This document shows positions 2,384 through 62,327 of a stretch of 64,000 nt of DNA, piece after piece. Each line of letters begins with the position of its first letter. Positions within the stretch are counted from its first letter, which is position 1. The translations under genes and the position numbers were made by a program. Source of the stretch: Burkholderiales bacterium. Lineage in GTDB: Bacteria; Pseudomonadota; Gammaproteobacteria; Burkholderiales; Burkholderiaceae_C. A model generated the notes under the pieces. That model ran no database searches. It saw only the letters and a list, made by a program, of their open reading frames with translations, and was not told the origin of the DNA. The stretch is taken from positions 62,001 to 126,000 of the forward strand of contig RXJQ01000044.1 in assembly GCA_003963115.1 (NCBI GenBank). The letters run 5' to 3'.

Positions 2384-3121
2384 TCAGCGCGCCGTCTTCT
2401 TTGGGGCAGCCTTCTTGGCGGCGACCTTCTTCACGGCGACTTTCCGGGCGACTGCCTTCTTGGCCGCGACCTTCTTCACAGCCACCTTGCGTGCCGGCGC
2501 CTTCTTGGCCTCGGGCGCGTTGACCACGATCTTCTTCACGGTCGAGGAAGAGAAGGCCTTCTTGGCTACAACCTTTTTGGCCGCAGCCTTCTTGGCAGGC
2601 ACCTTGGCTGCAACCACCTTCTTCGCAGCTGGCGCCTTCTTGGCAACCACCTTTCGAGTGGGCGATGTCGTCGCGGCCCTTTGGGCGGATGTCGTCTTGC
2701 CCGATGCCTTCTTGGGCTTGACGGGCGCCTCGTCTTCTTCCTGCGGCTCGGAAGCCTTCACCAGACCGGTCTTGGCGACCTTGAGCTTGAGGGTCACGGG
2801 CTTCTCACCCCAGATCTCTTCGAGCTGGTAGTACTGGCGGATGGCCGGTTGCATGATGTGGACGACCGCCGCGGCGCAGTCCACGATGATCCACTCACCG
2901 TTGTCCTCGCCCTCGGTCCGCATGACCTGAAAGCCTGCTTCCTTGACCGCCTTGCGCACGCTGGACGACAAAGCCTTGGTCTGACGGTTGGAAGAGCCGG
3001 TTGCGATGACCACCCGCTCAAACAGGGGCGAGAGGTGCTCGGTGTTGAACACGACGATGTCTTGTGCCTTGACATCTTCCAGACCATCGACGATGGCGCG
3101 TTGCAGTTTGCGAATGTCCAT
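2384..3121 (-). CDS. rsfS: Ribosome silencing factor RsfS with long Lys/Ala-rich C-terminal tail
   Basis: Residues 1 to about 117 are a standard RsfS (DUF143) domain: MDIRKLQRAIVDGLEDVKAQ, ATGSSNRQTKAL, GEWIIVDCAAAVVHIM and YYQLEEIWG. This domain binds uL14 on the large subunit and blocks subunit joining under starvation. Residues from about 118 to 245 are an extension built of acid and then KKA/AKK/VAKK-type repeats, very basic and probably disordered, like histone H1 or AlgP tails. Family members are normally about 105-130 residues, so this copy is roughly doubled. The start overlaps the nadD stop by one base (TAATG), which suggests translational coupling. There is no sign of a frameshift joining two genes: the frame is continuous and the tail has no separate start with a ribosome site. 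Confidence 0.95.
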   Translation of the reverse strand: MDIRKLQRAIVDGLEDVKAQDIVVFNTEHLSPLFERVVIATGSSNRQTKALSSSVRKAVKEAGFQVMRTEGEDNGEWIIVDCAAAVVHIMQPAIRQYYQLEEIWGEKPVTLKLKVAKTGLVKASEPQEEDEAPVKPKKASGKTTSAQRAATTSPTRKVVAKKAPAAKKVVAAKVPAKKAAAKKVVAKKAFSSSTVKKIVVNAPEAKKAPARKVAVKKVAAKKAVARKVAVKKVAAKKAAPKKTAR

Positions 3122-3741
3122 TAAGTGCTTGAAGCCGGGGGGGCGGCGTAGAGTTGATGGGTTGCAATATAGCGCGCGACACCGTAGGGCAACAGGTCGG
3201 GCACCAGTGAATACGGATCTTTACCACGGCCAAGCCGGGTACGGATATCGGTTGAGGACACGTCCAGTGGCGGCAGGGGCAGTTCGACCACGCGGTAGTT
3301 CAGCCCCTGCATGGCCTGCGGCGCGGCGGGCAGATCATGCCCTCTGCAGGCCACGGCCAGCGTCAGGACTTGCAACAATTCGTGCCAGCCCTGCCAGGTC
3401 GGGAAGTTCGCAAACTGGTCCTGCCCGATGATCAGGAACCATTGAGCAGGCTGCGTGGACCGCGACTGTAACGCACGCACGGTATCCAGTGTGTAAGAAG
3501 GCCCTTGCCTGCGCAGCTCGATCGGGTCGACCGTGAAGCGTGGCTCGTGCGCGGTGGCCGCCTCGACCATGGCCAGCCGGTGCTCGGGTGCCGCCAGTTG
3601 CCGCGCCTTCTGCCAGGGCTGCCCGACGGGGATCCAGCGCACTTCGTCGAGCGTCAGATGACGCAGGGCGAGTTCGGCCAGCTCGACATGGGCACAGTGA
3701 ACCGGGTCGAAACTGCCGCCCATCAGGCCGATGCGGCGCAC
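3121..3741 (-). CDS. nadD: Nicotinate-nucleotide adenylyltransferase
   Basis: 206 residues. The N-terminus MRRIGLMGGSFDPVHCAHVE contains the GGSFDPxHxxH nucleotidyltransferase motif, and WFLIIGQDQFANFPTW and SSTDIRTRL are further NadD signatures, the last being the ISSTxIR phosphate-binding motif. The enzyme adenylates nicotinate mononucleotide to deamido-NAD in cytoplasmic NAD synthesis. Four bases separate it from hemF upstream, and it overlaps rsfS downstream by one base, so it sits in the middle of a tight operon. Confidence 0.97.
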   Translation of the reverse strand: MRRIGLMGGSFDPVHCAHVELAELALRHLTLDEVRWIPVGQPWQKARQLAAPEHRLAMVEAATAHEPRFTVDPIELRRQGPSYTLDTVRALQSRSTQPAQWFLIIGQDQFANFPTWQGWHELLQVLTLAVACRGHDLPAAPQAMQGLNYRVVELPLPPLDVSSTDIRTRLGRGKDPYSLVPDLLPYGVARYIATHQLYAAPPASST

Positions 3742-4700: not shown

Positions 4701-6002
4701 TCAACGCGCTTTGATGGCACGCCAGCCAATGTCGGTGCGGAACTGCATGCCATCGAACTGGATGCCGCGCATGTAATCGTAGGCACGCTGCTGCGCCAGC
4801 TTGGCCGATTCGCCCAGTGCCGTCACGCACAGCACGCGGCCACCGCTGGTGCGCACCTGGCCGTCATCGCCCATGGTCGTGCCGGCATGGAAGACCATGG
4901 CGTCATCGGCTTCGGCAGGCAGGCCCATGATCACGTCACCCCTCTTAGGGTCCAGCGGGTAGCCGCCGGCAGCCATCACCACGCCCAGCGCGAAGCGCCG
5001 GTCCCATTGCAGTTCGACCTGGTCCAGCGTGCCATCGGTGGCAGCCATGAACACATCGATCAGGTCGCTCTTGAGGCGCATCATGATGGGCTGCGTCTCA
5101 GGGTCGCCCATGCGGCAGTTGAACTCCAGCGTCTTGGGGTTGCCATTGGCGTCGATCATCAGGCCTGCGTACAGGAAACCGGTGAAGGGGATGCCGTCCT
5201 TGGCCATGCCTGCCAGCGTCGGGTTGATGATCTCGTGCATGGTCTTGGCATACACATTGGGCGTGACCACGGGTGCGGGCGAGTAGGCGCCCATGCCGCC
5301 CGTGTTGGGGCCGGCATCGGCATCCAGCAGGCGCTTGTGGTCCTGGCTGGTGGCCAGCACGTTCACGTTCTTGCCATCGGCCAGCACGATGAAGCTGGCT
5401 TCCTCGCCTTGCAGGAACTCTTCGATCACGACGCGCGGCGTAGCCTGCCCATCCACGCCAGCGTTGTGCTGCACGCCCAGCCGGTTGTCCAGCAACATCC
5501 AGTCGACGGCCTCATGGGCCTCGGCCAAGGTCATGGCCACGATCACACCCTTGCCGGCTGCCAGGCCATCGGCCTTGATCACGATGGGCGCGCCGTGCTT
5601 GTCCACATAGGCGTGTGCGGCGGTGGCATCGGTGAAGGTCTCGTAGAAGGCCGTGGGGATGCCATGGCGCTTCATGAAGTCCTTGGCGAAGGCCTTGGAG
5701 CTCTCCAGCTGCGCTGCCTTTTGCGTCGGGCCGAAGATGCGCAGGCCGCGTGCGCGGAACTCGTCCACCACGCCGGCCGCCAGCGGGGCCTCGGGGCCGA
5801 CCACGGTCAGGTTGATCTTGTTGTTCTGGGCGAAGTCAGCCAAAGCCTTCACGTCGGTGATGGGCACATTGACCAGACGCGGATCGCGCGCCGTACCGCC
5901 ATTGCCCGGCGCCACATAGACCTTCTGGGCCTTGGGGGACTGGGCCAGCTTCCAGGCCAGGGCGTGCTCGCGGCCGCCCGAGCCGATGACAAGGATATTC
6001 AT
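4701..6002 (-). CDS. purD: Phosphoribosylamine--glycine ligase
   Basis: 433 residues, full length for PurD. The N-terminus [20 protein letters not shown] is diagnostic, followed by [16 protein letters not shown] and the ATP-grasp region containing [32 protein letters not shown] and [10 protein letters not shown]. It makes glycinamide ribonucleotide, the second step of purine synthesis. It is 16 nt downstream of yebC and leads into hemF. Confidence 0.98.
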
Positions 6003-6018
6003 ACGGTGCTCAATCTCT

Positions 6019-6741
6019 TCAATTCAACTCGGCGTTGTGGAACACATCCTGCACGTCGTCCAGGTCTTCCAGTACATCCAGCAACTTCTGCATGCGGGCG
6101 GCATCGTCGCCCGTCAACTCGATCGTGTTCTCGGCGCGCATGGTCACTTCGGCCACTTCAGGTTTCATGCCAGCGCCTTCCAGCGCGTTCTTCACAGCCT
6201 CGAAATCAGCGGGCGAGCTCAGCACCTCGATAGAGCCATCATCGTGGGTGATGACGTCTTCGGCGCCGGCTTCCAGGGCCACTTCCATGACCTTGTCCTC
6301 GCTCACGCCCGGCGCAAACAGGAGTTGGCCCACGTGCTTGAACTGGAAGGCCACCGAGCCTTCCGTGCCCAGGTTGCCGCCATACTTGCTGAAGGCGTGG
6401 CGCACCTCGGCCACCGTGCGCACCCGGTTGTCGGTCATGCAGTCGACGATGATGGCCGCACCGCCAATGCCGTAGCCCTCGTAGCGGATTTCCTCGTAGG
6501 TCACGCCGTCGAGGTTGCCCGTGGCCTTGTCCACATTGCGCTTGATGTTGTCGGCCGGCATGTTGGCCGCCTTGGCCTTGTCGATGGCCAGGCGCAGGCG
6601 CGGATTCATGTTGATGTCGCCGCCACCCTGGCGCGCCGCCACGATGATTTCACGCGTGATGCGGGTCCAGACCTTGCCGCGCTTTTCGTCCTGGCGGCCT
6701 TTGCGGTGTTGGATATTGGCCCACTTGGAATGACCGGCCAT
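6019..6741 (-). CDS. yebC: YebC/PmpR-family (TACO1-like) regulator or translation factor
   Basis: 240 residues from [20 protein letters not shown], the invariant N-terminus of the family; a GGAG element lies about 10 nt upstream. The body contains [29 protein letters not shown] and [18 protein letters not shown], all conserved. Members were described as DNA-binding regulators, and more recently some as translation factors easing stalls at polyproline; which role applies here is not visible. It is the first gene of the minus-strand run leading to purD and hemF. In other bacteria yebC is often beside ruvC; not here. Confidence 0.95.
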
Positions 6742-6782
6742 GGCGTCTTGCTCCGGGAAAAATCTGTTTTTGAACGACAGAA

Positions 6783-6809
6783 CGCGCCCCGGCACAAGTC
6801 CGGTGCGCG
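6783..6809 (-). other. GC-rich hairpin upstream of yebC
   Basis: CGCGC-C-CCGG and CCGG-T-GCGCG form a nine-pair stem with one mismatch and a 7-nt loop, 42-68 nt upstream of the yebC start. There is no T-run in either direction, so it is not a simple terminator. It may lie in the yebC leader or next to its promoter. Confidence 0.35.
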
Positions 6810-6811
6810 CA

Positions 6812-6835
6812 CAAAAATGCTCAGCTCAAGCTGAG
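6812..6835 (-). terminator. Rho-independent terminator after the exported repeat protein
   Basis: Read on the minus strand, CTCAGC TTGA GCTGAG is a perfect 6-bp stem with a 4-nt loop, followed after CA by five T. It lies about 90 nt beyond the stop of the exported repeat protein and just before the yebC leader, so it would insulate yebC from the upstream gene. Confidence 0.75.
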
Positions 6836-6926
6836 TGATACGGCGATTTTACCTTTTGCCCGGGTTGACCTCGATCAGGTATCGATCGGCCCGCTCCCAC
6901 CCCCGACTTGCACTTCGGAAAAGGCC

Positions 6927-7364
6927 TCAATGGCCGCGACGCCAACCCCGGTCGTCATCGCGGTCACGCCAGCCCTCGTTCCAGGCGAAGCGGTCGTCAT
7001 CATGGTGATGGTGACGCCAACCTCCCCAGCCACGCGGCTCGCAGTGGCGGGGCCTGTCATAGACCACCACGGGTGCGGGCACATAGCCATACACCGGGCT
7101 CTCCACCACCACGGCGGGCGGGGCATACACCACCGGAGGCGGCGCATACACGACCGGTGCGGGCGCATACACCACCTGCTGAAAAGGCGCCACGCCCCAG
7201 CGCGTATTCGACACCGCGGTGGACACGCGCCCCACGCCCTGCATAGGTGCATCCACATTCACCGACCAGTAGACGCCACCGCCCGCATGGGCGCCGACGG
7301 ACGCGGCCACCAACCCAGCCGCAAGGACAAGACGAGACAGCGATGCAAAACGGGAAGTGTTCAT
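6927..7364 (-). CDS. Exported protein with PVVYAPP repeats and His/Asp-rich C-terminus
   Basis: 145 residues from MNTSRFASLSRLVLAAGLVA, with AAGGAG about 7 nt upstream. Residues 1 to about 28 form a Sec signal peptide with a likely cut after GAHA. The mature protein starts GGGVYWSVNVDAPMQGVG, continues to a run of near-repeats PVVYAPPPVVYAPPAVV, and ends in an Arg/Trp/Gly-rich segment containing HHHHDDD. This resembles the many small periplasmic or surface proteins of Burkholderiales with valine-proline-tyrosine repeats, whose function is unknown. The His/Asp cluster could bind metal, but that is inference. It has its own ribosome site and terminator, so it is probably monocistronic. Confidence 0.85.
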   Translation of the reverse strand: MNTSRFASLSRLVLAAGLVAASVGAHAGGGVYWSVNVDAPMQGVGRVSTAVSNTRWGVAPFQQVVYAPAPVVYAPPPVVYAPPAVVVESPVYGYVPAPVVVYDRPRHCEPRGWGGWRHHHHDDDRFAWNEGWRDRDDDRGWRRGH

Positions 7365-7452
7365 GATGGGCTCCTTATGAGCCCTCAACGGCCCAGTCGC
7401 CCATCCGGACGACACGGGCCCACGCGACTTTGTAAGCCTGTGTAGGGACCGC

Positions 7453-8742
7453 TCAGTGCTGGTGGTGATGCCCGTCGCTGCGCGCCAGCGCCATCAACTG
7501 ATCAACCTCAGTCTTGTAGACAACCATATTGCGCCGATGCCAGAGCCCGATCAGCGCCATCACGGATGCCACCACCAGGCCAAACAGGGTGATCGCCTGG
7601 AAGGCCGTGAACCCGACCGACGTGGCCCCCGCATACAGACCACCCAGCGCCAGGATGCAGGCCTGCTCGTTGAAGTTCTGCACGGCGATCGACCGCCCCG
7701 CACCCATCAGGTTGTGGCCGCGGTGTTGCAGCAGGGCGTTCATCGGCACCACGAGGTAACCCACGCTTGCACCCAGCAGCACCAGGAAAGGCACGGCCAC
7801 CGTCAGGCTGGTGATCACATTGAGCCCTAGCATCAGCAGGCCCATGGCCACACCCAGAGGAATCAGCTTGGTGGCCAGGTCCAGCCGCATCGACACCGAG
7901 GCCACGACCGCGCTGACGGCCGTGCCGATCACGACGACCCCCGCCAGCGAAGACGCCTGCGTGGTCGAATAACCCAGCGCCGCAGCCGCCCACGGGAACA
8001 CGATGACGCGCATATTGCCCGACACGCCCCACACCAGCGTGGTGCTGGCCAGGGAGATCTGGCCGAGCTTGTCGCGCCACAGGCGCATATTGCATTGCCA
8101 GAAGTCGCGCAGCAGCTCCATGAAATGCCCGCTCATGGGCTGCAGCACGGCCTCGGTGCGCGGGATGCGCAGGTTGAACAGCGCCGCGATCGCGTACAGG
8201 ACGATCATGGAAGCCACGGCGGCCTGCCAGGGCTGGTCGACGCCAGTGTCGATCACCGGGAAGTCAAAGCTCAGCAGGACGGATGACAGCCTGGCGCCCA
8301 CCAACTGCCCACCCAGCAGCACGCCCAGGATGATGGAGCCAACCGTCAGGCCCTCGATCCAGCCATTGGCTTTCACCAGCTGGGAAGGCGGCAGCAACTC
8401 GGTCAGGATGCCGTACTTGGCTGGCGAGTAGGCGGCAGCGCCCAGGCCCACCACGGCATAAGCCAACAAAGGGTGCAGGCCACTCAGCATGAGCAGGCAG
8501 CCCACCACCTTGATGCTGTTGGCAATGAACATCACCTTGCCCTTGGGCAAGGCATCAGAAAACGCCCCGACGAAGGGTGCGAGCACGACGTAGAACAGCG
8601 CAAACATCGGCGCCAGAAACGGCATCTGCCAGGACGGTGCGTGGCTGATCTTCAGCAATTCGACGGCGGCCACCAGCAAGGCGTTGTCGGCCAGCGAGCT
8701 GAAAAACTGCGCCGCCATGATCGTGAAAAAACCTTTTTTCAT
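7453..8742 (-). CDS. lplT: Lysophospholipid transporter LplT (MFS)
   Basis: 429 residues starting MKKGFFTIMAAQFFSSLADN, the typical LplT opening; the open frame reaches 8826 but the extra residues are not family-like. About 12 membrane segments are apparent. FVGAFSDALPKGKVMFIANS is the loop 2-3 MFS motif, and AYSPAKYGILTELLPPSQLV is the LplT signature. The protein flips lysophosphatidylethanolamine across the inner membrane for re-acylation. In enterobacteria it is paired with the acyltransferase Aas; here it is divergent from alr and no Aas is in the window. The C-terminus ends in HHHQH. Confidence 0.92.
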   Translation of the reverse strand: MKKGFFTIMAAQFFSSLADNALLVAAVELLKISHAPSWQMPFLAPMFALFYVVLAPFVGAFSDALPKGKVMFIANSIKVVGCLLMLSGLHPLLAYAVVGLGAAAYSPAKYGILTELLPPSQLVKANGWIEGLTVGSIILGVLLGGQLVGARLSSVLLSFDFPVIDTGVDQPWQAAVASMIVLYAIAALFNLRIPRTEAVLQPMSGHFMELLRDFWQCNMRLWRDKLGQISLASTTLVWGVSGNMRVIVFPWAAAALGYSTTQASSLAGVVVIGTAVSAVVASVSMRLDLATKLIPLGVAMGLLMLGLNVITSLTVAVPFLVLLGASVGYLVVPMNALLQHRGHNLMGAGRSIAVQNFNEQACILALGGLYAGATSVGFTAFQAITLFGLVVASVMALIGLWHRRNMVVYKTEVDQLMALARSDGHHHQH

Positions 8743-41029: not shown

Positions 41030-41215
41030 GTCGATCCTTGCGTCCGGGATGAGACACTGACACCCGGGGTTGGTTGCCATGCTATGAAACTGACCGCATG
41101 ATGATTGGGTCATAAAGCGGCCAAAATCACTCTATTGAGACCCGATCGACCTCAGATGCCCATTTCGTACCCAGTCTGGTGAAAGATTTGGCCGGCTGGC
41201 ACGACCAAGAACATG

Positions 41216-41232
41216 ACGCTCGACAAGAGCGT
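41216..41232 (+). other. Small hairpin in the bufferin leader
   Basis: ACGCTC-GACAA-GAGCGT, a perfect 6-bp stem with a 5-nt loop, 32 nt before the DUF2282 gene; TTTT follows after a short GC stretch. Too weak to call a terminator; it may modulate translation. Confidence 0.35.
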
Positions 41233-41264: not shown

Positions 41265-41567
41265 ATGAATCAACGTCAACTGCTGTCTTCTGCTCTCGCT
41301 TCCGTTCTGGCCCTGGGCCTGGCCCAAGCCGCCCATGCCGGCGACGAGATGTCGGCCAACAAGAACAAGGAAAAGTGCTTCGGCATCGTCAAGGCCGGCC
41401 AGAACAACTGCGCCAACCTGTCTGGCTCGCACTCCTGCGCCGGCGAATCCAAGGACGACAATTCGCCCGCCGAGTGGAAGCTGGTCGCCAAGGGCACCTG
41501 CGCGCAACTGGGCGGCCTGAATGCCGAGCAGGCCAAGGCGGCCCTGGCCAAGATCGCCAAGAAGTGA
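41265..41567 (+). CDS. bufA: Bufferin-type RiPP precursor (DUF2282, BufA-like)
   Basis: 100 residues. MNQRQLLSSALASVLALGLA with a cut after AHA is a Sec signal peptide. The mature core has four cysteines at 38, 49, 58 and 79 in EKCFGIVKAGQNNCA, SGSHSCAGESK and VAKGTCAQLGG, the DUF2282 pattern. DUF2282 proteins are the precursors of bufferins: periplasmic peptides whose cysteines are modified by a DUF692 (MNIO) enzyme and that bind copper in studied Caulobacter systems. Order precursor-MNIO-DUF2063 is intact, with 19 nt to the enzyme gene. AAGGA lies before the ATG. Metal and trigger here are not known. Confidence 0.9.
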   Translation: MNQRQLLSSALASVLALGLAQAAHAGDEMSANKNKEKCFGIVKAGQNNCANLSGSHSCAGESKDDNSPAEWKLVAKGTCAQLGGLNAEQAKAALAKIAKK

Positions 41568-41586
41568 TGCGGTTTGAGGACGTGCA

Positions 41587-42540
41587 GTGACGCTGCCGGG
41601 CTCGCCTCAGTCTCTGGTTGGCATCGGTCTGCGCCAGCCTCATGCGCAGGCCCTGCTGGCCCTGCGCCCTCCCCTGGGCTTCGTGGAGCTGCACTCCGAG
41701 AATTTTTTCGCCGATGGCGGTGCCAATCTGCAAGCGCTGGATGAGGTCCGGGCGCACTACCCGGTGAGCCTGCATGGCGTGGGGCTGTCGCTGGGGTCGG
41801 CCAGCGGGGTGGATGCCGCCCATCTGGACAAGCTGGCCCGGCTGGTGGTCCGCATCGACCCCGTGCGGGTGTCGGACCACGCCTGCTTCGCCCGGGTGGC
41901 CGCGCCCGGTTCGCCCCAGGCCGTGCACGCCAGTGATCTGCTGCCGCTGGCTTTCACGACTGCTTCGCAAGAGATCCTGGTGCGCAACATCCAGCAGGTG
42001 CAGGATCGCTTGCAGCGACCCATCCTCATCGAGAACCTGTCGGCCTACATGGCTTATGAGGACGACAGCATCCCCGAGGCGGAGTTCCTGGTCCAGACCT
42101 GCCGGCGCGCAGGCTGTCAGTTGCTGCTGGACCTCAACAACCTGGTGGTCAATGGTTTGAACCGGGCCCGGCGCGCCACCTGGCAAACCGCGCCAGGAAC
42201 GGAGCCCGATCGGGACCATGCCCTGGCGAAGGCGCGTGTCGAAGCCCTGGATTTTTTATGGAGCATCCCACCCAGCCTGGTCGGCGAGATCCACCTGGCC
42301 GGCTTTCGCTGGCCCGATCAGGCGGACAGGCTGGTGATCGATGACCACAGCCAGCGCGTCAGCCCCACCGTGTGGGACATCTACGAACAGGCTTTGACGC
42401 ACCTGGGCGAGATCCCGACCCTGATCGAATGGGATGTCGACCTGCCGCCGCTGGCCGTGCTGCTGGACGAAGCCCGGCTGGCCGCTCAGGCGATCACCCG
42501 CCAACGAGGTGGTGAGGCGGACTTCGAGGCGGACGAATGA
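41587..42540 (+). CDS. bufB: MNIO-family (DUF692) peptide-modifying enzyme, BufB-like
   Basis: 317 residues from a GTG start with GAGGA 6 nt upstream. A TIM-barrel enzyme of the multinuclear non-haem iron oxidase group. Likely metal ligands lie in FVELHSENFF, VSLHGVGLSLG, VSDHACFARV, LIENLSAYM, LLDLNNLVVNGLN, GEIHLAGFRW, IDDHSQRVS and LIEWDVDLP, all at conserved positions. Such enzymes oxidise cysteines in the precursor (to thiooxazole or related products in bufferins). The stop overlaps the next start (ATGA), so production of the partner is coupled. Confidence 0.94.
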   Translation: MTLPGSPQSLVGIGLRQPHAQALLALRPPLGFVELHSENFFADGGANLQALDEVRAHYPVSLHGVGLSLGSASGVDAAHLDKLARLVVRIDPVRVSDHACFARVAAPGSPQAVHASDLLPLAFTTASQEILVRNIQQVQDRLQRPILIENLSAYMAYEDDSIPEAEFLVQTCRRAGCQLLLDLNNLVVNGLNRARRATWQTAPGTEPDRDHALAKARVEALDFLWSIPPSLVGEIHLAGFRWPDQADRLVIDDHSQRVSPTVWDIYEQALTHLGEIPTLIEWDVDLPPLAVLLDEARLAAQAITRQRGGEADFEADE

Positions 42541-43418
42541 ACGCCGAAGCAGCCAGGATGGCCGCGCAGGCGCTGGCTTTCGAATCAGCGCGGCAGGACG
42601 CGGTGCTGGCTGCGCTGCGCGCCACCTTGCCGCCCGCCACGCCTTTGGACGCACAACAAGCCTGTTGGCCTGCCCTGACGCGAGCACGCCTGCGCACCGA
42701 CGCCAGCGGACTGAGGGCCTATCAGGTCAATGCCCGCGCCACGGCCCAGCGTGTGCTGCTCGACCACTTCCCAACCTTGGCTGCGATGCTGGGCAAGGAC
42801 GCGCTGCAAGCCTTGGCCGTGCAACTGTGGGACGCGCAGCCGCCCAGCAGCGGCGACCTGGGCGAATGGGGCGCAGCCCTGCCCGCCTTGCTGGCCCAGC
42901 ACCCCGATTTGCAAGCCTGGCCCTGGCTGGCCGACTGCGCCCGACTGGACTGGGCCCGCCACCAGTGCCTGCGCGCGGCCGATGCGGCGCTGGACGCCAA
43001 CAGCCTGCAACGCCTGGGGGATACGGCCCCTGAACAGCTTCAGTTGGTGCTGCAACCCTGCGTGCAAGTCGTGCACAGTGTCTGGCCTGTTGAGGCGCTG
43101 TGGGCGGCACACCAGTTGGAGCCGGCCCGGCAGGCGCAGGCTGCCAGCGAAGCACTGGCTCAGGTGAACGACAAGCAAGCGGTGGACGATGGGCAGACGG
43201 TGGTCGTCTGGCGACATCCATGGCAAGTGCAGATGAGCACGCTGGATGAGGACAGCGGCTGGTGGATGCGCGCCCTGGCCGATGCTCAGACAGAAGCCGC
43301 GCCGGCCTCCAACACCTCGCTGGCGACCCTGCTCGATCAGGCTCCGGCCGGTTTCGACTTCTCGGCCTGGCTGACCGCAGCCGTGGCGCAGGGCTGGCTG
43401 TGGCAGGTGCGCTGCTGA
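42537..43418 (+). CDS. bufC: DUF2063 partner protein, BufC-like
   Basis: 293 residues. The N-terminal domain reads LRAYQVNARATAQRVLLDHF, then PTLAAMLGKDALQALAVQLW, the DUF2063 (HvfC/BufC N-terminal) pattern seen directly after DUF692 genes. These proteins bind the precursor leader and deliver it to the MNIO enzyme. The C-terminal half is Ala/Gln-rich and less conserved. It ends 12 nt from the convergent tolA stop. No DoxX-type membrane protein or ECF sigma/anti-sigma pair, sometimes part of such loci, is present. Confidence 0.88.
   Translation: MNAEAARMAAQALAFESARQDAVLAALRATLPPATPLDAQQACWPALTRARLRTDASGLRAYQVNARATAQRVLLDHFPTLAAMLGKDALQALAVQLWDAQPPSSGDLGEWGAALPALLAQHPDLQAWPWLADCARLDWARHQCLRAADAALDANSLQRLGDTAPEQLQLVLQPCVQVVHSVWPVEALWAAHQLEPARQAQAASEALAQVNDKQAVDDGQTVVVWRHPWQVQMSTLDEDSGWWMRALADAQTEAAPASNTSLATLLDQAPAGFDFSAWLTAAVAQGWLWQVRC

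Positions 43419-58818: not shown

Positions 58819-62327
<3,509 letters not shown>

Follow-up and report, generated by a model that had tools for sequence, protein, structure and literature searches.

Our results support the view that positions 41265-43418 of a 64,000-nucleotide window (the whole stretch of DNA analyzed here, positions 62,001 to 126,000 of contig RXJQ01000044.1, assembly GCA_003963115.1) contain a genuine type-1 bufferin (Buf1) operon, bufABC, and that this operon probably forms the biosynthetic half of a cluster whose genes lie scattered in the genome. In our model, the bufA promoter would be read by an unlinked extracytoplasmic function (ECF) sigma factor, encoded on contig C56 of the same genome and shared with a doxX gene and a type-2 bufferin (Buf2) operon. 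The host genome (G000) belongs to an Aquabacterium-like member of the Burkholderiales, and we refer to genomes of the same genus (42 including G000) as congeners. The model draws on gene identities, intact predicted ligand positions, a conserved promoter signature, the presence of this signature at three loci, and the co-occurrence of the parts across the genus, all of which were computed.

The model has a maturation branch and a regulatory branch. The precursor BufA would be synthesized with a Sec signal peptide, after which the multi-iron oxidase BufB together with BufC would convert C49 and C58 to 5-thiooxazoles in the cytoplasm while C38 and C79 would form a disulfide; mature BufA would then be exported to the periplasm, where it would buffer copper. 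The bufA promoter would be read by the ECF factor encoded at C56:77908-78561, which would be restrained by a 78-residue zinc-motif anti-sigma protein (C56:77656-77892), and this ECF factor would also direct transcription of doxX (C56:77085-77597) and of the type-2 operon on contig C28. The inducing signal may be a thiol-reactive metal or oxidative stress.

The operon consists of three open reading frames on the plus strand. bufA (41265-41567) encodes a DUF2282 (Buf1) precursor of 100 amino acids (PF10048, 80.1 bits, cut-off 22.4); bufB (41587-42540), with a GTG start, encodes a 317-residue maturase of the MNIO (multinuclear non-heme iron oxidase) family (PF05114, MbnB_TglH_ChrH, 284.1 bits, cut-off 25); and bufC (42537-43418), which overlaps bufB by an ATGA, encodes a 293-residue DUF2063 partner (PF09836, 42.7 bits, cut-off 27.2). 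This is the gene order stated for bufferin clusters in PMC12452194, and homologues in the same order are found in many genomes, so that the arrangement is not a matter of chance. A sequence-only reading of this DNA had proposed a tight three-gene bufferin operon with these start and overlap features; the frames agree with it, and its assignment as a bufferin operon is well supported by protein families, invariant ligand positions, and matches of the structure models. The biosynthetic genes are ordinary for the Buf1 type. The same reading described the precursor as a signal-peptide-bearing four-cysteine DUF2282 protein: the family and the four cysteines (C38, C49, C58, and C79) hold, whereas the Sec-type signal peptide at about residues 1-25 (MNQRQLLSSALASVLALGLAQAAHA) was judged by eye only. 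All four cysteines are aligned in 90 of 90 collected precursors, a figure that is partly built in because the first three belonged to the pattern used for collecting them.

The predicted structure of BufB (predicted local distance difference test, pLDDT, 89.1) has 3bww (E 2.6e-17), TglH, and MbnB as its nearest structures. H63, H98, E149, D182, N185, H236, D252, H254, and E281 are invariant among 30 aligned sequences, and six of these positions (H63, H98, E149, D182, H236, and E281) we take to be iron ligands. The remaining three, N185, D252, and H254, align by way of 3bww with N175, D242, and H244 of site 3 in HvfB, the third iron site, whose residues are described as required for activity (PMC13419390). 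An insert of about 25 amino acids after N192 (residues ~192-218), modeled as a helical hairpin, replaces a short NHGFD-type loop in BufB; it is common to close congeners, while the versions in other Burkholderiales vary and are mostly shorter, the longest being that of the Methylibium record L048. We considered and rejected the idea that the lost NHG histidine signifies loss of catalysis, for the loop is replaced in many BufB proteins of the Burkholderiales and the ligand positions are invariant. For BufC (pLDDT 91.7), the best Foldseek matches were 8hci_A (E 9.6e-4) and, weakly, 3dee/NGO1945 (E 0.022), and its C-terminal part is probably RRE (precursor-peptide recognition element)-like, as judged from the model. 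Buf1 peptides, as described in PMC12452194, have modifications on the two central cysteines and a disulfide between the outer pair, and the Caulobacter Buf1 carries thiooxazoles and chelates copper. By analogy, thiooxazole chemistry and a role in copper handling may be expected for the peptide described here, and the product of the three genes would very probably be a small modified copper-binding periplasmic peptide.

Support for the regulatory branch comes from the region upstream of bufA, where alignment of congeneric sequences revealed a block at fixed spacing. In the window, this block forms a candidate ECF-type promoter (41179-41205, plus strand) with the -35-like element GTGAAAGATTT and the -10-like element CGAC at 41202-41205. 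The signature TG[TA][AC]AG-N15-18-CGAC is present in 68 of 90 bufA upstream sequences, including that of the window, with spacers that are all 16 or 17 nucleotides, compared to none of 89 stretches inside bufB, two reverse complements and one reversed sequence of the same 90, and a mean of 0.41 in mononucleotide shuffles. Once two duplicate loci are dropped (L035 and L036, apparent duplicates of L009 and L013), 66 of 88 upstream sequences carry it, window included; 22 of 111 loci in which no precursor was recognized were excluded from these counts. The form typical of the genus, TGNNAGATT-N13-CGAC, has a single match in the host genome, at the site in the window, with no control hits. The signature resembles the meningococcal sigma-E consensus (GTMAGBWTT, 12-13 nucleotides, CGTCTAAH; PMC2893595): the -35 element of the family as a whole (GTAAGG or GTCAGATT) agrees with GTMAGBWTT, and 35 of 88 upstream sequences have at most one mismatch to it together with CGAC or CGTC at 12-13 nucleotides, as compared to 0.3 in shuffles. 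Among the other congeners with bufABC and no doxX adjacent to it, 13 of 14 retain the signature.

No doxX, sigma factor, or anti-sigma gene lies directly beside the operon, in agreement with what the sequence-only reading had reported for doxX and sigma genes. Sigma region-4-like matches occur at 24 places in the host genome, and one of these is the C56 ECF gene, which is followed by the anti-sigma gene and then by doxX. The anti-sigma protein contains the HX3CX2C motif of zinc-binding anti-sigma (ZAS) proteins, scores 66.5 with NF052368 antisigmaE (cut-off 50), and lies narrowly over the cut-off of zf-HC2 (PF13490; 22.9 versus 22.2), while DoxX matches PF07681 with 54.2 bits (cut-off 23.6). 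Between the anti-sigma gene and doxX, at C56:77625-77653, we found TGTAAG-N16-CGACCAAG. In relatives, these genes are often neighbors of bufABC: 34 of 80 named loci have an ECF gene of the same family in divergent orientation no more than 1.4 kb upstream of bufB, and bufC is followed by doxX in 61 of the 73 named loci with enough sequence. The ECF gene is adjacent at 29 and not adjacent at 24 of the 53 named loci with the signature, and is present without the signature at five. The secretion ATPase gene and the tolA gene that flank the operon in the window (see below) also occur at some of these named loci. The simplest reading of these arrangements is that an ancestral locus held the ECF, anti-sigma, bufABC, and doxX genes between the ATPase gene and tolA, and that the regulator and doxX are now elsewhere. 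In a tree that carries no support values, the clade of the C56 ECF factor falls into a sister group of the bufA-adjacent ECF factors and is not nested among them; the regulator and doxX of this lineage may have been relocated, or a related set may have taken their place. The earlier suggestion that control of this operon may differ from known cases stands only in part: no sigma gene is adjacent; however, the ECF-type promoter is common to relatives with an adjacent sigma gene, and a matching set is present elsewhere in the genome.

The distribution of the parts across the genus is consistent with such a link. A BufB of at least 59% identity without doxX after it is found in 15 of 42 genomes, the host included, and an ECF factor at least 73% identical to that of C56 is present in 14 of these 15 genomes versus 3 of the 27 others (Fisher 1.7e-7, kinship ignored). 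Of the resulting 17 ECF loci, 12 carry a doxX gene preceded by the signature, four have no doxX match, and one is at a contig end. Among the ECF loci without doxX, three (G001, G035, and G036) belong to genomes that have no such BufB, and the fourth, G017, has bufABC with no signature before bufA. G001 and G036, which have no such Buf1 operon, keep the ECF gene together with a signature-bearing Buf2 operon. It is on this co-occurrence, along with synteny and promoter similarity, that we base the assignment of the promoter to the C56 ECF factor, which we infer from sequence.

The Buf2 operons provide a third location of the signature. In the host genome, a type-2 cluster (BufA2, MNIO, and DUF2063) lies on contig C28 (positions 5993-8028 of locus L004, minus strand), and GTGTAAGGA-N14-CGAC, a candidate ECF-type promoter, stands 98 nucleotides upstream. 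Among Buf2 operons of the genus, 16 of 17 have the signature, compared to 0.025 in shuffles and none in reverse complements; two of the 17 (those of the host and of G013) were known beforehand to carry it, the sample comprised 23 of the weaker MNIO loci, from which six not of BufA2 type were dropped, and an earlier count with a poorer choice of starts gave 10 of 19. According to the published landscape, sigma genes occur in Buf1 but not in Buf2 clusters (PMC12452194), and it would therefore be informative if one factor acted in trans on Buf2 as well.

In searches of whole genomes, the pattern GTGTAAGGA-N14/15-CGAC had 20 hits in 16 genomes versus 5 control hits, with 14 of the 20 at bufA, and TGWMAGRTT-N13-CGACC had 17 hits in the 42 congeners versus 3, with 11 at bufA. 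Other targets included a Buf2 operon, msrP twice, msrA, a DUF1223 gene, a redoxin gene, and a lactonase-like gene twice, among others; these are only suggestive, and they do not exceed the number of control hits for the GTGTAAGGA pattern and show a modest excess for TGWMAGRTT. With TGNNAG-N16-CGACCAA the contrast was weak (32 hits in six genomes versus 22 control hits; 4 versus 2 in the host), the four hits in the host being the bufA and doxX promoters, a site 197 nucleotides before a 301-residue frame, and a site without a frame of at least 90 residues starting within 400 nucleotides. At L168 and L180, in two congeners, the signature precedes genes similar to one another, of which that at L180, the only one run against Pfam, is barely over the lactonase cut-off. 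At L177 and L181, again in two congeners, it stands about 70 nucleotides before a molybdopterin oxidoreductase gene that is MsrP/YedY-like by eye. YedY belongs to the Caulobacter SigF regulon (PMC3511200).

A broader proposal, for and against which we find the case evenly balanced, is that one unlinked pair of ECF and zinc anti-sigma proteins, of the kind of Neisseria sigma-E/MseR, governs Buf1, Buf2, and doxX in Aquabacterium and, in some congeners, the periplasmic methionine sulfoxide reductase MsrP, with bufferins as effectors of thiol or zinc stress. If this is true, bufferins would be effectors of a cytoplasmic thiol- and zinc-sensing response in which copper buffering and methionine repair are linked, and neither a dedicated copper sensor nor SigF/NrsF would be in charge of them. 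A signature common to doxX and to bufferin operons of both types, all at different places in the genome, amounts to a falsifiable prediction of one shared regulator in a group of environmental bacteria; it suggests that bufferin production belongs to an oxidant or thiol-stress response, and it offers a route to bufferin regulators and to further members of the regulon where the genes are not neighbors.

Several observations weigh against control of bufABC by the C56 set or against parts of the assignment. The case is built on sequence and structure models. At the protein level, BufB scores 301.5 bits, in a match split into two stretches, with NF050167, the NCBIfam BufB equivalog and the best of five MNIO models listed, for which the cut-off is 310; BufC scores 20.6 with the HvfC model (cut-off 142); and the DoxX of C56 is under the HvfX cut-off. 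At the promoter level, the -35 element in the window is degenerate (GAAAGATTT), with two mismatches to the Neisseria sigma-E consensus, a spacer of 12, and CGAC as -10 element; the doxX promoter has three mismatches to the Neisseria -35 element; and the signature is absent from 22 of the 90 bufA upstream sequences, five of which have an adjacent ECF gene of the family. Beyond the bufferin and doxX promoters, the genome-wide hits are not clearly above controls, and the shuffles that serve as controls for the signature counts are mononucleotide shuffles, with kinship among loci ignored. Finally, G024 (89% complete) has this Buf1 operon and the signature, but no ECF factor of the family at E 1e-20.

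Some further points of this kind bear on a specific alternative, namely that this is an ordinary bufferin operon read by another sigma factor, be it a second ECF factor of the family or a general ECF factor, with the C56 set inherited alongside it for some other reason. The host does encode a second family ECF factor (L121, contig C3), which is ~42-52% identical to bufA-adjacent ECF factors over the aligned part and falls among them, on a long branch, in the tree without support values; the signature was not found upstream of the C56 ECF gene itself; and a weak sigma-70-like pair is present at 41074-41102 (one found versus 0.2 in shuffles). However, the frame that follows L121 is patatin-like (by eye), no anti-sigma frame separates the two, and of the 15 congeners with this operon arrangement only G000 and G019 have a match to the second ECF factor, the copy in G019 having an internal stop. 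The C56 ECF gene, by contrast, is followed by an anti-sigma gene and by doxX, which bears the signature in 12 of the 17 congeners with an orthologue. We therefore consider it unlikely that another sigma factor reads this promoter, and retain the C56 ECF factor as the probable regulator.

Control of the SigF/NrsF type as in Caulobacter, with a diverged NrsF missed by searches, is highly improbable. The Caulobacter promoter, GTAACC-N16-CGAA, has a comparable layout (PMC3511200), and NrsF is mentioned for Buf1 clusters in the published landscape (PMC12452194), but the -35 element of the whole family fits GTMAGBWTT. The NrsF model (PF06532, E 0.001) had no match in the host genome and matched in 1 of 42 congeners and 5 of 50 genomes with named loci, while the Caulobacter control was positive, and we reject SigF/NrsF as the regulator in this genome. 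Least credible is a decaying remnant that has shed doxX and its regulator on the way to loss, for although no bufA or bufC was detected here in three congeners and G017 lacks both the bufA signature and doxX, all nine predicted ligand positions of BufB and the four cysteines of BufA are intact, the ratio of non-synonymous to synonymous substitution rates (dN/dS) is ~0.21-0.24 against two close relatives, and nearly all other congeners with this arrangement keep the signature, as described above.

The three congeners just mentioned (G007, G014, and G010) show neither bufA nor bufC between the secretion ATPase gene and tolA, and keep an open 301-codon gene derived from bufB (L244:2203-3108, plus strand; L245:2254-3159, plus strand; and L243 ~2431-3261, minus strand). 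In alignment, eight of the nine predicted ligand positions of this gene are changed or deleted and only E149 is kept, while its pairwise dN/dS is ~0.15-0.16. It looks like a gene under purifying selection that encodes a selected MNIO pseudoenzyme; we found no paper covering both MNIO and pseudoenzyme. Two other loci contain single frames of 596 and 632 amino acids (L079, 5013-6803, and L021, 1474-3372, respectively) that are apparent natural BufB-BufC fusions.

An inverted repeat in the bufA leader (ACGCTC-GACAA-GAGCGT, 41216-41232, plus strand) lies close to the transcription start expected if the promoter works as in Neisseria. Of 13 congeneric leaders, 8 have stems of at least 5 bp and of differing sequence that start at the same offset, 12-14 nucleotides from CGAC, compared to a mean of 0.25 and a maximum of 1 in shuffles and to at most 2 of 13 in windows not overlapping the peak; the offset was picked with the data in view, and the count excludes L010, which is too short, and L012, which has no signature, from the 15 leaders. 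For stems of at least 6 bp at any position, the excess is weak (4 of 13 versus 1.0 in shuffles, largest 4), and folding of the whole bufA leader equals that of shuffles (z -0.02), which speaks against a hairpin. Tentatively, the repeat may form a 5'-terminal RNA stem that possibly protects the message. A different repeat is found in 26 of 61 signature-bearing bufA upstream sequences (L020, L038-L042, L044, L046-L049, and others), in which the CGAC of the -10 element is followed by GTCG after 3-16 nucleotides, giving an inverted repeat over the region from the -10 element to the start (3.3 in shuffles, largest 9 in 300); there is none in the window. A terminator scan yielded two terminator-like sites versus 1.7 in shuffles.

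With respect to its neighbors, the operon is preceded by a divergent gene for a secretion ATPase of type II/IV (T2SSE match of 410.5 bits; MshEN) and followed by a convergent gene that ends 12 bp away and matches TonB_2 (70.0 bits, cut-off 22). We call the latter tolA on the basis of this match and of tolR- and tolQ-like frames beyond it, identified by eye, and the tail-to-tail layout that had been read from the sequence is correct. The same layout had been taken as a hint of differing control, but it is common in relatives: within the 5 kb downstream, 40 of 80 named loci and 15 of 18 congeneric loci (L006-L023) have a convergent homologue of tolA, and some of these loci also carry adjacent sigma and doxX genes. 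The position next to tolA is not a peculiarity of this operon.

Bufferins are a very large and recently recognized family, and the literature, in the parts that deal with regulation, gives little on the control of Buf1 and Buf2 outside Caulobacter and Cupriavidus; no paper among our search results describes a bufferin regulon dispersed in this way. With the Buf1 clusters, which often include DoxX, such as those of Caulobacter (CC3254-3257) and Cupriavidus (gigPABT), the operon shares the gene order, the four-cysteine DUF2282-type precursor, the MNIO, and the DUF2063 partner. It differs from them in that neither doxX nor the ECF gene is a neighbor, in that BufB has the helical insert of ~25 residues, and in that the genome has no NrsF match. 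The Cupriavidus gig genes have rpoQ, a sigma gene, and a gene for a predicted membrane anti-sigma factor in divergent orientation, and their promoter had yet to be found in the account of that locus (PMC10304878).

Two known systems come closer in regulation. The Caulobacter operon CC2907-2905 (PMC3511200), as described, is also a three-gene bufABC without doxX that is controlled in trans by an ECF factor, SigF; there, the promoter is GTAACC-N16-CGAA and the anti-sigma factor is the membrane protein NrsF, whereas here we find a GTMAG-type -35 element, CGAC, and a gene for a short zinc-motif anti-sigma protein. With Neisseria sigma-E/MseR and Haemophilus RpoE2/HrsE, as these are described (PMC2893595, PMC3240639, PMC7907618), the shared features are an ECF factor and a short anti-sigma protein, with the ZAS motif in MseR. 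The regulon comprises msrAB, three hypothetical genes, and a gene for DoxX; in Neisseria, the -35 element is GTMAGBWTT, with a spacer of 12-13 nucleotides. NGO1945, encoded by one of the hypothetical genes, is a DUF2063 partner. The -10 element is CGAC here and CGTC in Neisseria. Moreover, Neisseria and Haemophilus have a precursor of the EGKCG/oxazolin type, and in Neisseria the cluster and the sigma gene are linked, while here the putative targets are Buf1, Buf2, and doxX at three loci. In-trans control of bufABC by an ECF factor has already been published for Caulobacter, and the system proposed here would be a variant of it, set apart by the kind of regulator and the dispersal over three loci.

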